Shown here: piece by piece, positions 56,948 to 62,777 of the stretch
How positions within the stretch are numbered: position 1 is the stretch's first letter
Layout of the letters: every line of letters starts with the position of its first letter
NCBI RefSeq assembly: GCF_006716185.1
Contig: NZ_VFOP01000001.1
Location: 1,364,001 to 1,428,000, forward strand
Length of the DNA: 64,000 bases
From: Ornithinicoccus hortensis
GTDB lineage: Bacteria; Actinomycetota; Actinomycetes; Actinomycetales; Dermatophilaceae
Direction of reading: 5' to 3'
Notes under the pieces: generated by a model
What the model saw: only the letters and a program-made list of their open reading frames with translations
What the model was told of the DNA's origin: nothing
Databases searched by the model: none
Translations under genes and position numbers: made by a program

Positions 56948-58234
56948 ATGAGCGAAGCCTTCGACACGGTCGACATCATCCGCGCCAAGCGGGACCGGCA
57001 GCAGCTGACCAGTGAGCAGATCGGGTGGGTGATCGACGCCTACACCCGCGAGGTGGTGGCCGACGAGCAGATGTCCGCGCTGGCCATGGCGATCCTGCTC
57101 AACGGGATGGACCGGCGGGAGATCGCCGACTGGACCGCGGCGATGATCGCCTCGGGCGAGCGGATGGACTTCGGGGCCCTGTCGCGCCCCACCGCCGACA
57201 AGCACTCGACCGGAGGGGTGGGCGACAAGATCACCCTGCCGCTGGCCCCTCTCGTGGCCGCCTGCGGCGTCGCGGTGCCCCAACTCTCCGGCCGGGGGCT
57301 CGGGCACACGGGAGGCACCCTGGACAAGCTCGAGGCGGTCCGCGGCTGGCGGGCCGACCTGAGCAACGAGGCGATGATGAGCCAGCTCGAGGACGTCGGG
57401 GCCGTGATCTGTGCGGCCGGTGCCGGGCTCGCCCCGGCGGACAAGCGGTTGTACGCGCTGCGGGACGTCACCGGGACCGTGGAGGCGATCCCGCTCATCG
57501 CCTCCTCGATCATGAGCAAGAAGATCGCCGAGGGCACCGGGACCCTGGTCCTCGACGTCAAGGTGGGGTCAGGGGCGTTCATGAAGGACGCCGCGTCGGC
57601 CGGGGAACTGGCCAGGACCATGGTCGGGCTGGGCACCGATGCGGGTGTCACGACGGTCGCCCTGCTGACCGAGATGGGCACCCCGTTGGGGCTGACGGCC
57701 GGGAACGCCCTCGAGGTGCGGGAGAGCGTCGAGGTGCTCGCCGGCGGCGGACCGTCCGACGTGGTGGAGCTGACCGTGACCCTGGCCCGCGAGATGCTCC
57801 AGGCCGCCGGGGTGACCGACACCGACCCGGTCGATGCGCTCGCCGACGGGCGGGCGATGGATGTCTGGCGGCAGATGATCTCCGCGCAGGGCGGGGACCC
57901 CGACGCCCCGTTGCCGGTCGCCCGGGAGACCCAGGTGGTGACCGCCGAGGCCGACGGGGTGCTCAGCCGGCTGGATGCCCTCGCGGTCGGGGTGGCGGCC
58001 TGGCGCCTCGGCGCGGGGCGGGCCCGCAAGGAGGACCCGGTGCAGGCCGGCGCGGGCGTGGAGCTGCACGCCAAGCCCGGCGACCAGGTCCGCGCCGGGC
58101 AGCCGCTGCTGACCCTGCACACCGACACCCCCGAACGGTTCGCCCGTGCTACCGAGGCGCTGGACGGTGCCTGGGACATCGCCGACAGCAGCGTCCAGCC
58201 CGGGCCGCTCGTGATCGACCGGGTCTCCGCCTGA
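56948..58234 (+). CDS. deoA: Thymidine/pyrimidine-nucleoside phosphorylase
   Basis: 428 residues from the ATG at 56948. TADKHSTGGVGDKITLPLAPL (about 81-101) is the phosphate-binding signature KHSTGGVGD; SGRGLGHTGGTLDKLEAV, SSIMSKKIAEGTGTLVLDVKVGSGAFMK and the C-terminal PYNP domain (about 340-428) complete it. It cleaves thymidine or deoxyuridine (and possibly uridine) with phosphate, giving the base and deoxyribose-1-phosphate. It belongs with the importer and cdd upstream and with deoC further downstream. Confidence 0.96.
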   Translation: MSEAFDTVDIIRAKRDRQQLTSEQIGWVIDAYTREVVADEQMSALAMAILLNGMDRREIADWTAAMIASGERMDFGALSRPTADKHSTGGVGDKITLPLAPLVAACGVAVPQLSGRGLGHTGGTLDKLEAVRGWRADLSNEAMMSQLEDVGAVICAAGAGLAPADKRLYALRDVTGTVEAIPLIASSIMSKKIAEGTGTLVLDVKVGSGAFMKDAASAGELARTMVGLGTDAGVTTVALLTEMGTPLGLTAGNALEVRESVEVLAGGGPSDVVELTVTLAREMLQAAGVTDTDPVDALADGRAMDVWRQMISAQGGDPDAPLPVARETQVVTAEADGVLSRLDALAVGVAAWRLGAGRARKEDPVQAGAGVELHAKPGDQVRAGQPLLTLHTDTPERFARATEALDGAWDIADSSVQPGPLVIDRVSA

Positions 58235-58299
58235 GGCCGACATCCTCCGAGTCGACCAGTACAAAACTTGAGGAAACCAGACACAAGTTAGACGCGAAC

Positions 58300-58328
58300 T
58301 TGCTTTTTCTTTAACTTCCCTTTACGTT
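58300..58328 (+). promoter_or_regulatory. Promoter of the GT2-sortase cassette in AT-rich leader
   Basis: TTGCTT (58300-58305), a 17-base spacer and TACGTT (58323-58328). It lies in a stretch (about 58253-58331) of roughly half A+T, far below the G+C of the rest of the window. The transcript would have a leader of about 115 bases. Confidence 0.45.
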
Positions 58329-58450
58329 ACTGCTGGGTCGCCGGTCGGCGCACCCAACAGAGCGGCTTCGAAGGGAGCCCCTCTGGTCACTGACTGCTGA
58401 CCCGCAGGACGGGGGACTTTCCCCTGCCCTGGGGCCCGAGGGGAGTTCTC

Positions 58451-59527
58451 ATGGCTGGTGCTGCCGTTCCCATCCATGCGCTCGTGCCGGCGCACAACGA
58501 GGCGGCCGGTATCGGGGCGACCATCGAGGGCCTATTGACCCAGACCCGGCCGCCAGACTCGATCCTGGTGGTTGCGGACAACTGCACGGACGCCACTGTC
58601 GCGATCGCGGCCTCGTACGGGGTCGAGGTGATGGAGACGGTCGGGAACACGGCCAAGAAGGCGGGAGCCCTGAACCAGGCCCTGCGCGAACTCCTTCCGC
58701 GCGTGGGGGAGGACGCACTGGTGCTGGTGCAGGACGCCGATTCGGTGTTGTCCCCGGACTTCCTGGAGAACGCCGAACGCCACCTGGTCCGGCGTCCCCG
58801 ACGCCACCCGAACCTGGGCGCCGTGGGCGGCGTCTTCGCCGGGTCGGAGGGTGGCGGCTTCGTGGGGCACCTCCAGCGCAACGAGTACGCCCGGTACGCC
58901 CGAGACGTCCACCGGCTGGGCGGCCGGTGCCTGGTCGTCACCGGCACCGCCGCACTCTTCCGGGCCGCCACCCTGGGCGCGGTCTCCCGGGCGCGTCTGG
59001 AGGGGCGGATCCCGGCCGGCGACGGGGCGGGCGGGGTCTATGACACCACCGTCCTCACCGAGGACAACGAACTGTCCTTCGCGCTCCTGCACCTCGGCTA
59101 CACCATCGCCTCGCCGACGGACTGCACCTTGGTGACCGAGGTGATGGATTCGTGGGGGGACCTGTGGAAGCAGCGGCTGCGCTGGAAGCGCGGGGCCGTG
59201 GAGAACTGCTTCCAGTACGGGCTGACCGCCGTCACCTGGCGCTACTGGGGCCGGCAACTCCTGACCGCCCTGGGTGTCCTGGTCACCTTCATCTACCTGG
59301 GGACGCTCGTCTGGGCACTGGCCGCCGGTGGGGTGCACATCCACCCATTCTGGCTCGCAGTGACCGGCGTCTTCGTGATCGAGCGCGTCGTGACGGTGCG
59401 CTATCGGGGCTGGCGGCAGATGGTCCTGTCAGCCTCGATGTACGAACTGACCATCGACCTCTTCCTCCAGATCGTGCACGCCAAGGCCTACGCCGACGCT
59501 GCACTCAACCGCACGAGAGATTGGTGA
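58451..59527 (+). CDS. Processive-type GT2 glycosyltransferase, membrane-bound
   Basis: 358 residues; the ATG has GGGGAG six bases upstream. The GT-A domain shows HALVPAHNEAAGIGATIEGL, VADNCTD (Asp43), QDADSVLSPDF (about 93-103, DxD), VLTEDNELSFAL (about 202-213, the TED base) and KQRLRWKRGAVEN (QxxRW, about 241-245). Three membrane helices follow (about 258-285, 290-318 and 326-345). D, DxD, TED and QxxRW together mark the processive class of cellulose, chitin, hyaluronan and PNAG synthases, so it probably makes and threads out a beta-linked polymer or short glycan. It lacks PilZ and other accessory domains. Three bases separate it from the mini sortase substrate gene. Confidence 0.85.
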   Translation: MAGAAVPIHALVPAHNEAAGIGATIEGLLTQTRPPDSILVVADNCTDATVAIAASYGVEVMETVGNTAKKAGALNQALRELLPRVGEDALVLVQDADSVLSPDFLENAERHLVRRPRRHPNLGAVGGVFAGSEGGGFVGHLQRNEYARYARDVHRLGGRCLVVTGTAALFRAATLGAVSRARLEGRIPAGDGAGGVYDTTVLTEDNELSFALLHLGYTIASPTDCTLVTEVMDSWGDLWKQRLRWKRGAVENCFQYGLTAVTWRYWGRQLLTALGVLVTFIYLGTLVWALAAGGVHIHPFWLAVTGVFVIERVVTVRYRGWRQMVLSASMYELTIDLFLQIVHAKAYADAALNRTRDW

Positions 59528-59530
59528 CCC

Positions 59531-59716
59531 ATGTACAACAACATCTCCGCCCCGATGGCCGCCGGTGGTTCGGGTGGCATGCTGGCGATGACCGGGACGA
59601 ACAGCCTGTGGCTGGGGTTGGCGGCGTTCGCGCTCCTGGCCCTGGGCGCGGCCGTCCTGCGGATCGGTCCGCGCCGGGCGTCTCGTGCCTCGATCGACTC
59701 GGGCCACTGGGCCTGA
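59531..59716 (+). CDS. Mini protein consisting of a LAMTG sorting signal
   Basis: 61 residues. After a 17-residue Gly/Ala-rich lead (MYNNISAPMAAGGSGG...) comes LAMTG (18-22), a hydrophobic stretch (about 26-43) and a basic tail RIGPRR (44-49): a complete sortase sorting signal with almost nothing in front of it. LAxTG is the motif recognised by class E sortases, and a class E sortase gene follows after seven bases. No separate signal peptide is present, so insertion would depend on the single helix. Cleavage between T and G would leave a peptide of 21 residues joined to the wall or to another acceptor. The function is unknown. Confidence 0.75.
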   Translation: MYNNISAPMAAGGSGGMLAMTGTNSLWLGLAAFALLALGAAVLRIGPRRASRASIDSGHWA

Positions 59717-59723
59717 GCCTGCC

Positions 59724-60413
59724 GTGCGCTCTCGGTGGGTGGGCAGCCTCCTGCTCATCGCCGGCCTGGTCCTGCTCGGGATCGCGCTCTGGGTGCACCA
59801 CGACTCGGAAGGCGGCCTGCGCTCACGGGCCGCGGCCGCGGTCGCGGCAGCGCGCGAGGAGGCGCCTGCCCCCGTCGGCCCGGGAACACCTGTCGGACCG
59901 ACCCAGCTGAGCGCGCCGCCGGCAGGGGCCAGCGACCGGGGTGGCCCGGACAGCGAGGACGGATCGGCCAACGTCGTCGGTCCGGTCGACAGGGACCCTC
60001 CGCCGCTGGCCACGGCACCGTCCGTCGTCTCCGGCCTGGTGACCATCCCCTCGCAGGGGCTGGAGGCGGTGCTCCGACCGTCGGTATCGGCGACCGACCT
60101 CGATGTCGGCGTCGGACACTACCCGGGGACCGCCAGGCCCGGCCAGGAGGGCAACTTCGCCGTCGCAGCCCACCGCGGGCTGGTACCCGACCTGGACGGC
60201 CTGCAAGCCGGCGACGTCATCTCTGTGGAGTCCGCCGGTCGGGTCTACACCTACACCTGGGTGGAGTCCTTCGTCGTGGCGCCCGAGGACGTCTGGGTCC
60301 TGGACCCCGTGGCGGACGAGCGGGTCCTGACGCTGACCACCTGCCACCCGCGCTACAGCAACGCCCAGCGGCTGGTGGCCAGGTTCGAGTTGACGGGGGC
60401 GGCGCCCGCGTGA
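59724..60413 (+). CDS. Class E sortase
   Basis: 229 residues from a GTG. One N-terminal membrane anchor (about 7-24), a long Pro/Gly/Ala linker (about 45-100) and a catalytic domain with VGHYPGTARPGQEGNFAVAAHR (His150), LTLTTCHPRYS (Cys207) and NAQRLVARFEL (Arg216). TLTTC and the GHYPGTA...GNFA block are class E features; the loop after AAHR is short. All three catalytic residues are present. It should act outside the membrane on LAxTG proteins such as the 61-residue one encoded just before it. A nine-base-pair hairpin overlaps the stop. Confidence 0.88.
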   Translation: MRSRWVGSLLLIAGLVLLGIALWVHHDSEGGLRSRAAAAVAAAREEAPAPVGPGTPVGPTQLSAPPAGASDRGGPDSEDGSANVVGPVDRDPPPLATAPSVVSGLVTIPSQGLEAVLRPSVSATDLDVGVGHYPGTARPGQEGNFAVAAHRGLVPDLDGLQAGDVISVESAGRVYTYTWVESFVVAPEDVWVLDPVADERVLTLTTCHPRYSNAQRLVARFELTGAAPA

Positions 60414-60438: not shown

Positions 60439-61332
60439 TCAGCGCCCCTTCGGGTGCCAGACGGTCTTGGTCTCCAGGAACGCCTCCAGCCGGTGCAGGT
60501 CCGGGACCTGGGTGAAGTCCGGCTCGACCGCCGTGGTGCCGCTGCCGGCCGGGCGCAGGACGCGCTTGAGGTTCTCGGCGGCGGCCTCCTCCAGGTCGCC
60601 CCAGGCCAGCCCGTCCACGCCCGCGGACCCGGTCAGGTCGATCGCGTTGACGTCGCGGTGCGAGGCCAGCCACGGGGCGACCTCGGCGGTGCGACCGGTG
60701 ATCAGGTTCACCACGCCGCCGGGGACGTCGGAGGTGGCCAGTGCCTCGGCGAGGGTGATCGCCGGGACGGGTCGGTCCTCCGAGGCCAGCACCACCGCGG
60801 TGTTCCCCGAGACCACGATGGGCGCGACGACCGAGACCAGACCCAGCAGGGAGGACTGCTGCGGTGCCAGGGCGGCCACCACGCCGGTCGGCTCCGGCGC
60901 CGAGATGTTGAAGAACGGTCCGGCGACCGGGTTCAACCCGCCCAGGACCTGGGCGTACTTGTCGGACCACCCGGCATACCAGACCCACCGGTCGATCGCG
61001 GCGGAGACGGTGGCCTCGGCCTTCGCGGCGGTGAGCCCCTCGGCCGCCTGGACCTCGCCGACGAACTGGGCGCGTCGGGACTCCATGACCTCGGCCACCC
61101 GGTAGAGCACCTGCCCGCGGTTGTAGGCCGTGGCGCCGGCCCAGCCGGACAGGGCGCCGCGCGCTGCCTTCACCGCGTCGCGGGCGTCCTTGCGGGACCC
61201 CTGCGCGGCGTTCGCCAGGAACGCGGGGGAGCGGCCGGAGGAGAAGACCTCGTAGCTGCGACCGGACTCGCTGCGGGGGAACTTGCCCCCGATGTAGAGC
61301 TTGTACGTCTTGCGGACATCCACCCGGCTCAT
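60439..61332 (-). CDS. Truncated aldehyde dehydrogenase-like protein, no catalytic cysteine
   Basis: 297 residues from the ATG at 61332, overlapping the stop of the full ALDH gene (ATGA). KLYIGGKFPRSESGRSYEV, AYNRGQVLYRVAEVME and VVALAPQQSSLLGLVSVVAPIVVSGNTAVVLAS follow the N-terminal NAD-binding half of ALDH, and IDLTGSAGVDG matches the FTGS block. After that the protein stops in a short tail LEAFLETKTVWHP; the catalytic cysteine domain is missing, so it cannot be an active ALDH alone. Length and position resemble the C-terminal pseudo-ALDH domain of ALDH16, so the two genes may encode a split ALDH16. An intact second ALDH that lost its end is less likely because the reading frame is clean. 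Confidence 0.82.
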   Translation of the reverse strand: MSRVDVRKTYKLYIGGKFPRSESGRSYEVFSSGRSPAFLANAAQGSRKDARDAVKAARGALSGWAGATAYNRGQVLYRVAEVMESRRAQFVGEVQAAEGLTAAKAEATVSAAIDRWVWYAGWSDKYAQVLGGLNPVAGPFFNISAPEPTGVVAALAPQQSSLLGLVSVVAPIVVSGNTAVVLASEDRPVPAITLAEALATSDVPGGVVNLITGRTAEVAPWLASHRDVNAIDLTGSAGVDGLAWGDLEEAAAENLKRVLRPAGSGTTAVEPDFTQVPDLHRLEAFLETKTVWHPKGR

Positions 61333-62777
61333 GCGTCTGCTCCCGTCCTGACGTAGGCCGCCAGCCCGTGGCGCCCGCCCTCCCGGCCGTAGCCGGACTC
61401 CTTGTACCCACCGAAGGGGCTGGTCGGGTCGAACTTGTTGAACGTGTTGGCCCACACCACCCCGGCCTTCAGCTGGTCGGCCATCCACAGGATCCGGGAC
61501 CCCTTGTCGGTCCAGATCCCGGCGGACAACCCGTAGGGGGTGTTGTTGGCCTTGGCCACGGCCTCCTGCGGGGTGCGGAAGGTGAGCACCGACAGCACCG
61601 GCCCGAAGATCTCCTCCTGGGCGATCCGGTTGGTCTGGCTGACCCCGGTGAACACGGTGGGGCGGAACCAGAACCCGTTGCTGGGCAGCTCGCACTCGGG
61701 GGACCAGCGGGTCGCCCCCTCCTCCTCGCCGATCCTGACCAGGTTGTGGATCCGGTCGAGCTGCTCGCGGGAGTTGATCGCACCGATGTCGGTGTTCTTG
61801 TCCAGCGGGTCGCCCACCCGGAGGGTCTCCAGCCGCCGCTTGAGCTTGCGCTCGAACTCCTCGGCGACCGACTCCTGGACCAGCAACCGCGATCCGGCGC
61901 AGCAGACGTGGCCCTGGTTGAAGAAGATGCCGTTGACCACGCCCTCGACCGCCTGGTCGATGGGCGCGTCGTCGAAGACGATGTTGGCGGCCTTGCCGCC
62001 CAGCTCCAGGGTGGCCTTCTTGCGGGTGCCGGCGATGGCCCGCGCGATCGCCTTGCCGACGGCCGTCGAGCCGGTGAAGGCGACCTTGTCCACCCCCTCG
62101 TGCTCGACCAGGGCGCGGCCGGTCTCCCCGGCGCCGGTGAGGATGTTGACCACCCCGGGGGGTAGCTCGGCCTGCTGGCACACCTCGGCGAACAGCAGCG
62201 CGGTCAGCGGCGTGGTCTCCGCCGGCTTGAGCACGACCGTGTTGCCGGTGGCCAGGGCCGGCGCGATCTTCCAGGAGAGCATCAGGAGCGGGAAGTTCCA
62301 GGGGATGACCTGGCCCACCACCCCGTAGGGCTTCGGGTCCGCGCCGAGCGAGGCGAACCCGAGCTTGTCGGCCCAGCCGGCGTGGTAGAAGAAGTGCGCC
62401 GCCGCGGTGGGGATGTCGACGTCGCGGGACTCCTTGATCGGCTTGCCGTTGTCCAGGCTCTCCAGCACCGCGAACTCCCGCGCCCGCTCCTGCAGGATGC
62501 GCGCGATGCGGAAGAGGTACTTGCCCCGGTCCGCACCGGACATCCGGGACCAGACCCGGCTGTATGCCGTGCGGGCCGCGGCCACTGCCTTGTCGACGTC
62601 GGCGGGGCTCGCGTCGGTGACCTCGGCGAGCACCTCCTCGGTCGCCGGGCTGATCGACTTGAACGTCGAGCCGCCATCGGTCTCGACGAACTCGCCGTTG
62701 ATGAACAGCCCGTAGGAACTCTTGAGGTCGACGACGGCGCGGGACTCCGGCGCCGGTGCGTATTCGAACGTTGCCAT
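61329..62777 (-). CDS. Aldehyde dehydrogenase, catalytic subunit
   Basis: 482 residues from the ATG at 62777. It has all ALDH hallmarks: GQVIPWNFPLLMLSWKIAPAL (the PWNF block), KPAETTPLTAL, FTGSTAVGKAI, LELGGKAANIVF (general-base Glu, about 258), NQGHVCCAGSRLLV (catalytic Cys, about 293-294) and EEIFGPVLSVL. It oxidises an aldehyde to the acid with NAD(P). Located directly after deoC on the same strand, its likely substrate is acetaldehyde from DeoC; that is inference. It is co-translated with the truncated ALDH gene. Confidence 0.95.
   Translation of the reverse strand: MATFEYAPAPESRAVVDLKSSYGLFINGEFVETDGGSTFKSISPATEEVLAEVTDASPADVDKAVAAARTAYSRVWSRMSGADRGKYLFRIARILQERAREFAVLESLDNGKPIKESRDVDIPTAAAHFFYHAGWADKLGFASLGADPKPYGVVGQVIPWNFPLLMLSWKIAPALATGNTVVLKPAETTPLTALLFAEVCQQAELPPGVVNILTGAGETGRALVEHEGVDKVAFTGSTAVGKAIARAIAGTRKKATLELGGKAANIVFDDAPIDQAVEGVVNGIFFNQGHVCCAGSRLLVQESVAEEFERKLKRRLETLRVGDPLDKNTDIGAINSREQLDRIHNLVRIGEEEGATRWSPECELPSNGFWFRPTVFTGVSQTNRIAQEEIFGPVLSVLTFRTPQEAVAKANNTPYGLSAGIWTDKGSRILWMADQLKAGVVWANTFNKFDPTSPFGGYKESGYGREGGRHGLAAYVRTGADA

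Follow-up and report, generated by a model that had tools for sequence, protein, structure and literature searches.

What a peptide made up of hardly more than a sorting signal might do between a glycan synthase and a sortase is the question raised by a locus of Ornithinicoccus hortensis, which lies in a 64,000-nucleotide stretch of DNA (the window). Three co-directional genes, encoding a GT2 glycan synthase, a 61-aa peptide and a class E-like sortase, form a single run with gaps of 3 and 7 bases (Table 1). The original prediction had described this arrangement, and its ORF coordinates agree with ours; its further claim of a GT2 followed by a short LAMTG peptide and a sortase with His150, Cys207 and Arg216 was likewise confirmed in the sequence. 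Together with an AT-richer leader of 216 bases, the three genes sit between two genes that presumably encode a thymidine phosphorylase (deoA) and an aldehyde dehydrogenase. In two congeners (G016, locus L215; G015, locus L216) this site is empty, with the aldehyde dehydrogenase gene 34-68 bases after the end of deoA, and other congeners carry different genes at this site. Thus, the cassette genes behave as one block, as had been proposed, and this block was either gained here or lost in the congeners as one unit. A search of the region and its leader against Rfam gave no match at E up to 1, and no similar leader was found among related loci.

Table 1. Features of the cassette and its flanks, in window coordinates
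Feature	Coordinates	Strand	Basis or remarks
Left flank, presumably deoA, outside the cassette	56948..58234	+	
Leader/promoter region of the cassette	58235..58450	+	G+C 0.59 vs 0.71-0.73 around; AT-richer
GT2 glycan synthase, 358 aa	58451..59527	+	PF00535, PF13641; GT-A domain and C-terminal membrane region
61-aa peptide	59531..59716	+	One-helix ORF; sequence and conservation
LAMTG sorting motif (peptide residues 18-22)	59582..59596	+	Sequence
Predicted membrane helix of the peptide (residues ~26-43), then basic tail	59606..59659	+	Sequence; fusion model
Class E-like sortase, 229 aa, GTG start at 59724, N-terminal membrane anchor	59724..60413	+	
Right flank, presumably aldehyde dehydrogenase, outside the cassette	60439..61341	-	

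The GT2 carries the motifs DNC (43), DAD (95-97), TED (203-205) and QRLRW (241-245), and matches Pfam PF00535 with 69 bits. Its best NCBIfam model, PgaC_IcaA (TIGR03937), scored 71.8 bits against a cut-off of 422.3, and the XrtP-associated glycosyltransferase model NF053846 scored 37 bits against a cut-off of 520, so that the protein belongs to neither family by these models. A structure model of the GT2 (pLDDT 87.7 at an alignment depth of 15 rows) was most similar among solved structures to Chlorella virus hyaluronan synthase (8sne; Z 26.0, rmsd 3.5, 325 residues), followed by PcManGT (Z 24.4), with cellulose and chitin synthases close behind. The model combines a GT-A domain and a membrane region in the arrangement of processive synthases, with the D, DxD, TED and QxxRW motifs in place. 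By fold, the GT2 is therefore a minimal hyaluronan/cellulose-synthase-like enzyme and a putative processive synthase; it aligned to about residues 76-451 of hyaluronan synthase, and the outer membrane helices of that enzyme seem to be lacking.

The peptide has the layout MYNNISAPMAAGGSGGM-LAMTG-helix-basic tail and is without a signal peptide. A search of genome contigs with the peptide alone returned nothing, and the GT2 alignment served as a working query instead. Homologues of the GT2 were present in 17 of 148 relatives (E up to 1e-40), the window genome being the sole member of its genus among the matches, and in 46 of 395 genomes sampled across the class (E up to 1e-60); 80 named GT2 loci were added to the comparison. 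Just downstream of these genes we searched for an ORF of 38-140 aa with one hydrophobic helix and a basic tail. Such an ORF followed the homologous GT2 in 90 of 113 loci, compared to only 14 of 717 control gene ends from the DNA of these loci, and its presence is thus not due to chance; some of the loci scored as lacking it do show one in an earlier listing. The downstream peptides start with Met-Tyr in 71 of 90 cases, and their pre-motif segment is most often 17 residues long. On average, the peptides have 0.3 lysine or arginine residues ahead of the motif and 4.5 behind the helix, and an orientation with the N-terminus outside and the C-terminus inside is therefore predicted. The peptide weakly matches a small NCBIfam family, NF058583 (LAXTG_small_WW), to which it aligns over almost its full length (residues 1-52 of 61 on 1-52 of 54) with 27 bits, below the membership cut-off of 65, a cut-off that was reached by no genome in three surveys. 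Judged from conservation across these loci, the peptide, rather than the sortase, is shown to be the constant partner of the GT2 family. At one locus (L148, Nocardioides sp. Root140) the GT2 is followed by a 135-aa peptide with LPNTG, a helix and then a further hydrophobic segment, which looks like a fusion of two peptide copies.

The peptides fall into types that differ at the sorting motif. An L..[TS]G motif was found in 53 peptides just downstream of homologous GT2s, and peptides of the Met-Tyr type usually carry L-A/P-x-T-G before the helix and often [KR]-I-[LV]-P after it. In Actinomadura, Nonomuraea, Microtetraspora and Planotetraspora, SPWLG, APFLG and similar motifs occupy the positions of LAMTG with the same spacing to the helix, and across a set of loci, most of which have a class F sortase (L116-L118, L122-L130, L132, L161, L234-L236), [SAV]P[FWL]xG stands in register for LAMTG, replaced by SSWLG at L132. 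Another type is free of any such motif (e.g. L138-L147, L237-L241); its N-terminus is of the LLPE type, and its cytosolic tail, R-x-ETRSIxPD, is conserved. The expectation that LAMTG would be conserved in all homologues was thus not borne out, as both xPxxG and motif-free peptides occur. Since the peptide is kept without the motif in a whole branch, it must have a role for the GT2 besides sorting, which favors the second reading of the original prediction, that the peptide docks or regulates the GT2. In part of this motif-free branch, genes with similarity to EAL domains, or GGDEF-EAL-like ones, lie nearby (L138, L139, L147, L170, L084 and L159, and further L081, L083, L146, L162 and L167), and this suggests control of the branch by c-di-GMP. 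Furthermore, genes for GH26-like hydrolases adjoin the GT2 at L078, L082, L110, L120, L121, L155 and L243, and a gene for a NodB-type polysaccharide deacetylase does so at L091. The GH26-like, NodB and EAL neighbors fit a synthase-dependent surface polysaccharide, and the first two give a hint to the polymer itself, pointing to a modified polysaccharide.

The sortase of the cassette has its catalytic residues at His150 (60171-60173), Cys207 (60342-60344; TLTTC) and Arg216 (60369-60371), and belongs to the sortase superfamily by both PF04203 (89.7 bits, cut-off 26.6) and TIGR01076 (52.9 bits, cut-off 39.35). Among the NCBIfam sortase classes, class E scored best (NF033747, 115.1 bits) and was 50 bits ahead, but this score lies below the class cut-off of 160, and we therefore refer to the enzyme as class E-like. 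The original prediction of a complete class E sortase thus stands for the His/Cys/Arg triad and for class E as the best match, but not for formal membership in the class. In SrtE1 of Streptomyces coelicolor, Tyr229 follows strand beta3 (V226-H228), and class E sortases are reported to use LAXTG (PMC5148588). The window sortase has the corresponding tyrosine at the start of the beta3/beta4 loop (GHYPGT), and it shares with SrtE1 the catalytic residues and an LAxTG partner; in contrast to the LAXTG chaplins of SrtE1 (PMC5148588), the partner here has no secreted protein domain, and SrtE1 is also set apart by the score of the window enzyme below the class E cut-off. The window genome (3.9 Mb) has two sortase genes, the other one lying outside the window at G000:C1:941152-941574.

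A sortase gene adjoined the GT2 in none of the first 16 relatives. Among the named and Streptomyces loci, by contrast, class E sortases were found beside the GT2-peptide pair in Nocardioides (L120, L121), Streptomyces (L134, L163, L173, L174) and an Acidimicrobiales bin (L160), and class F sortases in a Streptosporangiaceae/Thermomonosporaceae clade. In the GT2 tree, which has 107 rows, class E appears in four places (4 changes; 8 rows) and class F in one clade (11 rows). By motif, LxxTG occurs in 8 rows with class E and in 45 with no sortase, xPxxG in 11 rows with class F and in 3 with none, and the 40 rows with neither motif nor sortase divide into 31 'other' and 9 'MYother', some 'other' rows being loci without any scored peptide. 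L[AP]xTG is carried by 8 of 8 class E loci, whereas 45 of the 53 LxxTG rows have no sortase within 2.5 kb. The position of the sortase gene also varies, from downstream to upstream co-directional or upstream divergent. The class sample, which was taken later, again had class F enzymes next to APFVG and APFMG peptides (L234-L236). Exceptions around class F comprise L123, where no class F gene was seen, L127, where the upstream DNA is missing, and L131 of Yinghuangia, which lies in the class F clade with LAMTG and no class F gene in view on a contig that ends soon after the GT2. Two genomes weaken the case for a strict pairing of LAxTG with class E and of xPxxG with class F, as in them a divergent class F-like sortase (65 and 73 bits) stands beside LALTG and LAMSG peptides (L231, L232). 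A histidine kinase-like gene and a divergent class F-like sortase accompany the GT2 and an LALTG or LAMSG peptide at L253 (3693-5824) and L254.

All of the 40 named and all of the 17 other genomes examined for sortases have them, and the presence or absence of a sortase at the genome level therefore does not separate the groups. Typically there are only a handful per genome, and adjacency of a sortase to the pair by chance in several separate lineages is thus very unlikely. Sister-pair tests of sortase linkage against the motif did not reach significance, as there were too few informative pairs. The combination of GT2, motif peptide and sortase extends beyond this species, as it recurs in several separate GT2 lineages and gene orders, and the idea that the sortase neighbor is unique to this genome and LAxTG accidental was dropped once class E and class F triads had been found. 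Of what had been anticipated for homologous loci, a retained short gene and a GT2-sortase linkage reaching far beyond the species were found, but the motif is not universal and most of these loci have no sortase next to the GT2.

We modeled contact between the peptide and the synthase by exploiting that the two genes share a reading frame: a translation through the stop codon (TGA read as Trp; 61 rows) stood in for the complex, with an artificial linker and no claim that read-through occurs in the cell. In this fusion model the peptide helix lies at 385-405 with a core pLDDT of ~93, while the linker is disordered (<50). The membrane region of the GT2 had a higher pLDDT than in the model of the GT2 alone, but the alignment was also deeper (61 vs 15 rows). 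With this difference in depth and the artificial linker, the hint of GT2-peptide contact given by the model is only suggestive; of the structure prediction that had been proposed for the pair, a confident helix was obtained, but fusion at unequal alignment depth leaves the contact unproven. The fused helix did not align to the membrane helices of hyaluronan synthase, the aligned range stopping at 384-385, and we do not claim that the peptide is a 'missing helix' of that enzyme.

The reading that we place first, at roughly an even chance of being right, is that the peptide is a membrane subunit of a surface-polysaccharide synthase and, in one large branch, a sortase substrate too. The cassette would make a surface polysaccharide by means of its minimal hyaluronan/cellulose-synthase-like GT2, and the 61-aa peptide would be a single-pass partner of the GT2 in the membrane, with its N-terminus predicted to be outside and its basic tail inside. 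From the motif, the sortase class and the repeated linkage, we infer that the adjacent sortase would cleave the peptide behind LAMT and transfer its first 21 residues (MYNN...LAMT) onto a precursor of the wall, with the peptide helix staying with the synthase after the cut. Most likely the purpose would be to position the synthase, or the polymer that it extends, at the wall or to tether it there; the effect of the sortase step could be tethering of the synthase, anchoring of the polymer, or release. An LAxTG peptide without an adjacent sortase could be cut by a sortase encoded elsewhere, as every tested genome has at least one. That the peptide is instead a stand-alone short sortase substrate, lying with its sortase beside the GT2 by chance, strikes us as very improbable: an adjacent sortase is indeed absent from most LxxTG loci, and NCBIfam has a separate category for small LAXTG proteins (NF058583), yet almost all loci of the GT2 family have the peptide after the GT2, whether or not it carries the motif.

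Retention of GT2 and peptide without motif or sortase in the branch with the R.ETRSI.PD tail, partly beside EAL/GGDEF genes, would also be expected if the peptide were only a membrane subunit of the synthase, like PgaD or IcaD, with LAxTG incidental or allowing its recycling by an ordinary sortase and the sortase neighbors reflecting shared regulation. The partial alignment to hyaluronan synthase, with its seemingly absent outer helices, and the higher pLDDT of the membrane region in the fusion model, though from a deeper alignment, point the same way. We nevertheless regard this explanation as rather unlikely, as it leaves aside that rare sortases, belonging to two classes and found in separate lineages, repeatedly lie next to the pair, as do exosortases, and that the main class F clade shows an in-register switch to xPxxG. 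A polysaccharide built on or joined to the N-terminal segment of the peptide, possibly at the conserved tyrosine, with the sortase fixing peptide and glycan to the wall, would be consistent with a pre-motif segment too short for a folded domain, with the GH26-like or NodB genes beside several loci, and with a tyrosine in the first five residues of 50 of 54 LxxTG and 15 of 15 xPxxG peptides, but only 10 of 22 motif-free ones. However, the active site of the GT2 is expected in the cytosol and the peptide segment is predicted to be outside, and Tyr2 could instead serve topology or start context; we consider a glycan carried in this way quite unlikely.

A synthase subunit that is also a sortase substrate can be set beside several known systems. 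PgaD and IcaD are small membrane partners of their synthases. PgaC, IcaA and the cellulose and hyaluronan synthases share with the cassette GT2 model or fold matches and such a partner, but here the GT2 scores far below the PgaC cut-off and has fewer membrane helices, and its partner carries a sorting motif. PcManGT (6yv7), an archaeal GT2 mannosyltransferase of similar size (Z 24.4 over 291 residues, 21% identity), comes from a host in a different domain of life; we know of no sorting partner for it. A paper on exopolysaccharide clusters of Actinoplanes missouriensis makes no mention of sortases (PMC13390465). The nearest known systems are the exosortase-GT2 systems (XrtG/XrtP). That of Lactiplantibacillus plantarum comprises a Firmicu-CTERM protein, exosortase G and two XrtG-associated glycosyltransferases (PMC12854382), and likewise groups glycosyltransferases with a protein that bears a sorting signal and with a sorting enzyme of the membrane. 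In contrast, the cassette has a class E-like sortase and no exosortase as its third gene, a bare 61-aa signal as substrate and one GT2, which would make it a sortase counterpart to the XrtG and XrtP systems with a very short substrate.

The known role of sortases is the anchoring of proteins, and to anchor or organize a polysaccharide synthase via a bare sorting peptide would, if true, be a new use; xPxxG would in turn be a candidate substrate motif for class F sortases. We put forward tentatively, as a possibility that may well prove wrong, a general form of sortase-based glycan anchoring, in which a near-bare sorting-signal peptide acts as subunit or acceptor for a GT2 and a dedicated sortase attaches it to the wall; this design would have been put together several times, with sortases of class E, with those of class F (mostly paired with xPxxG) or with exosortases. 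In four genomes (L033, L034, L035 and L197) a small MY...LAxTG peptide, an XrtR/S/P-like exosortase and a GT2-like gene lie side by side, and the GT2 of L035, the only one scored, matched the XrtP-associated model NF053846 with 213 bits.
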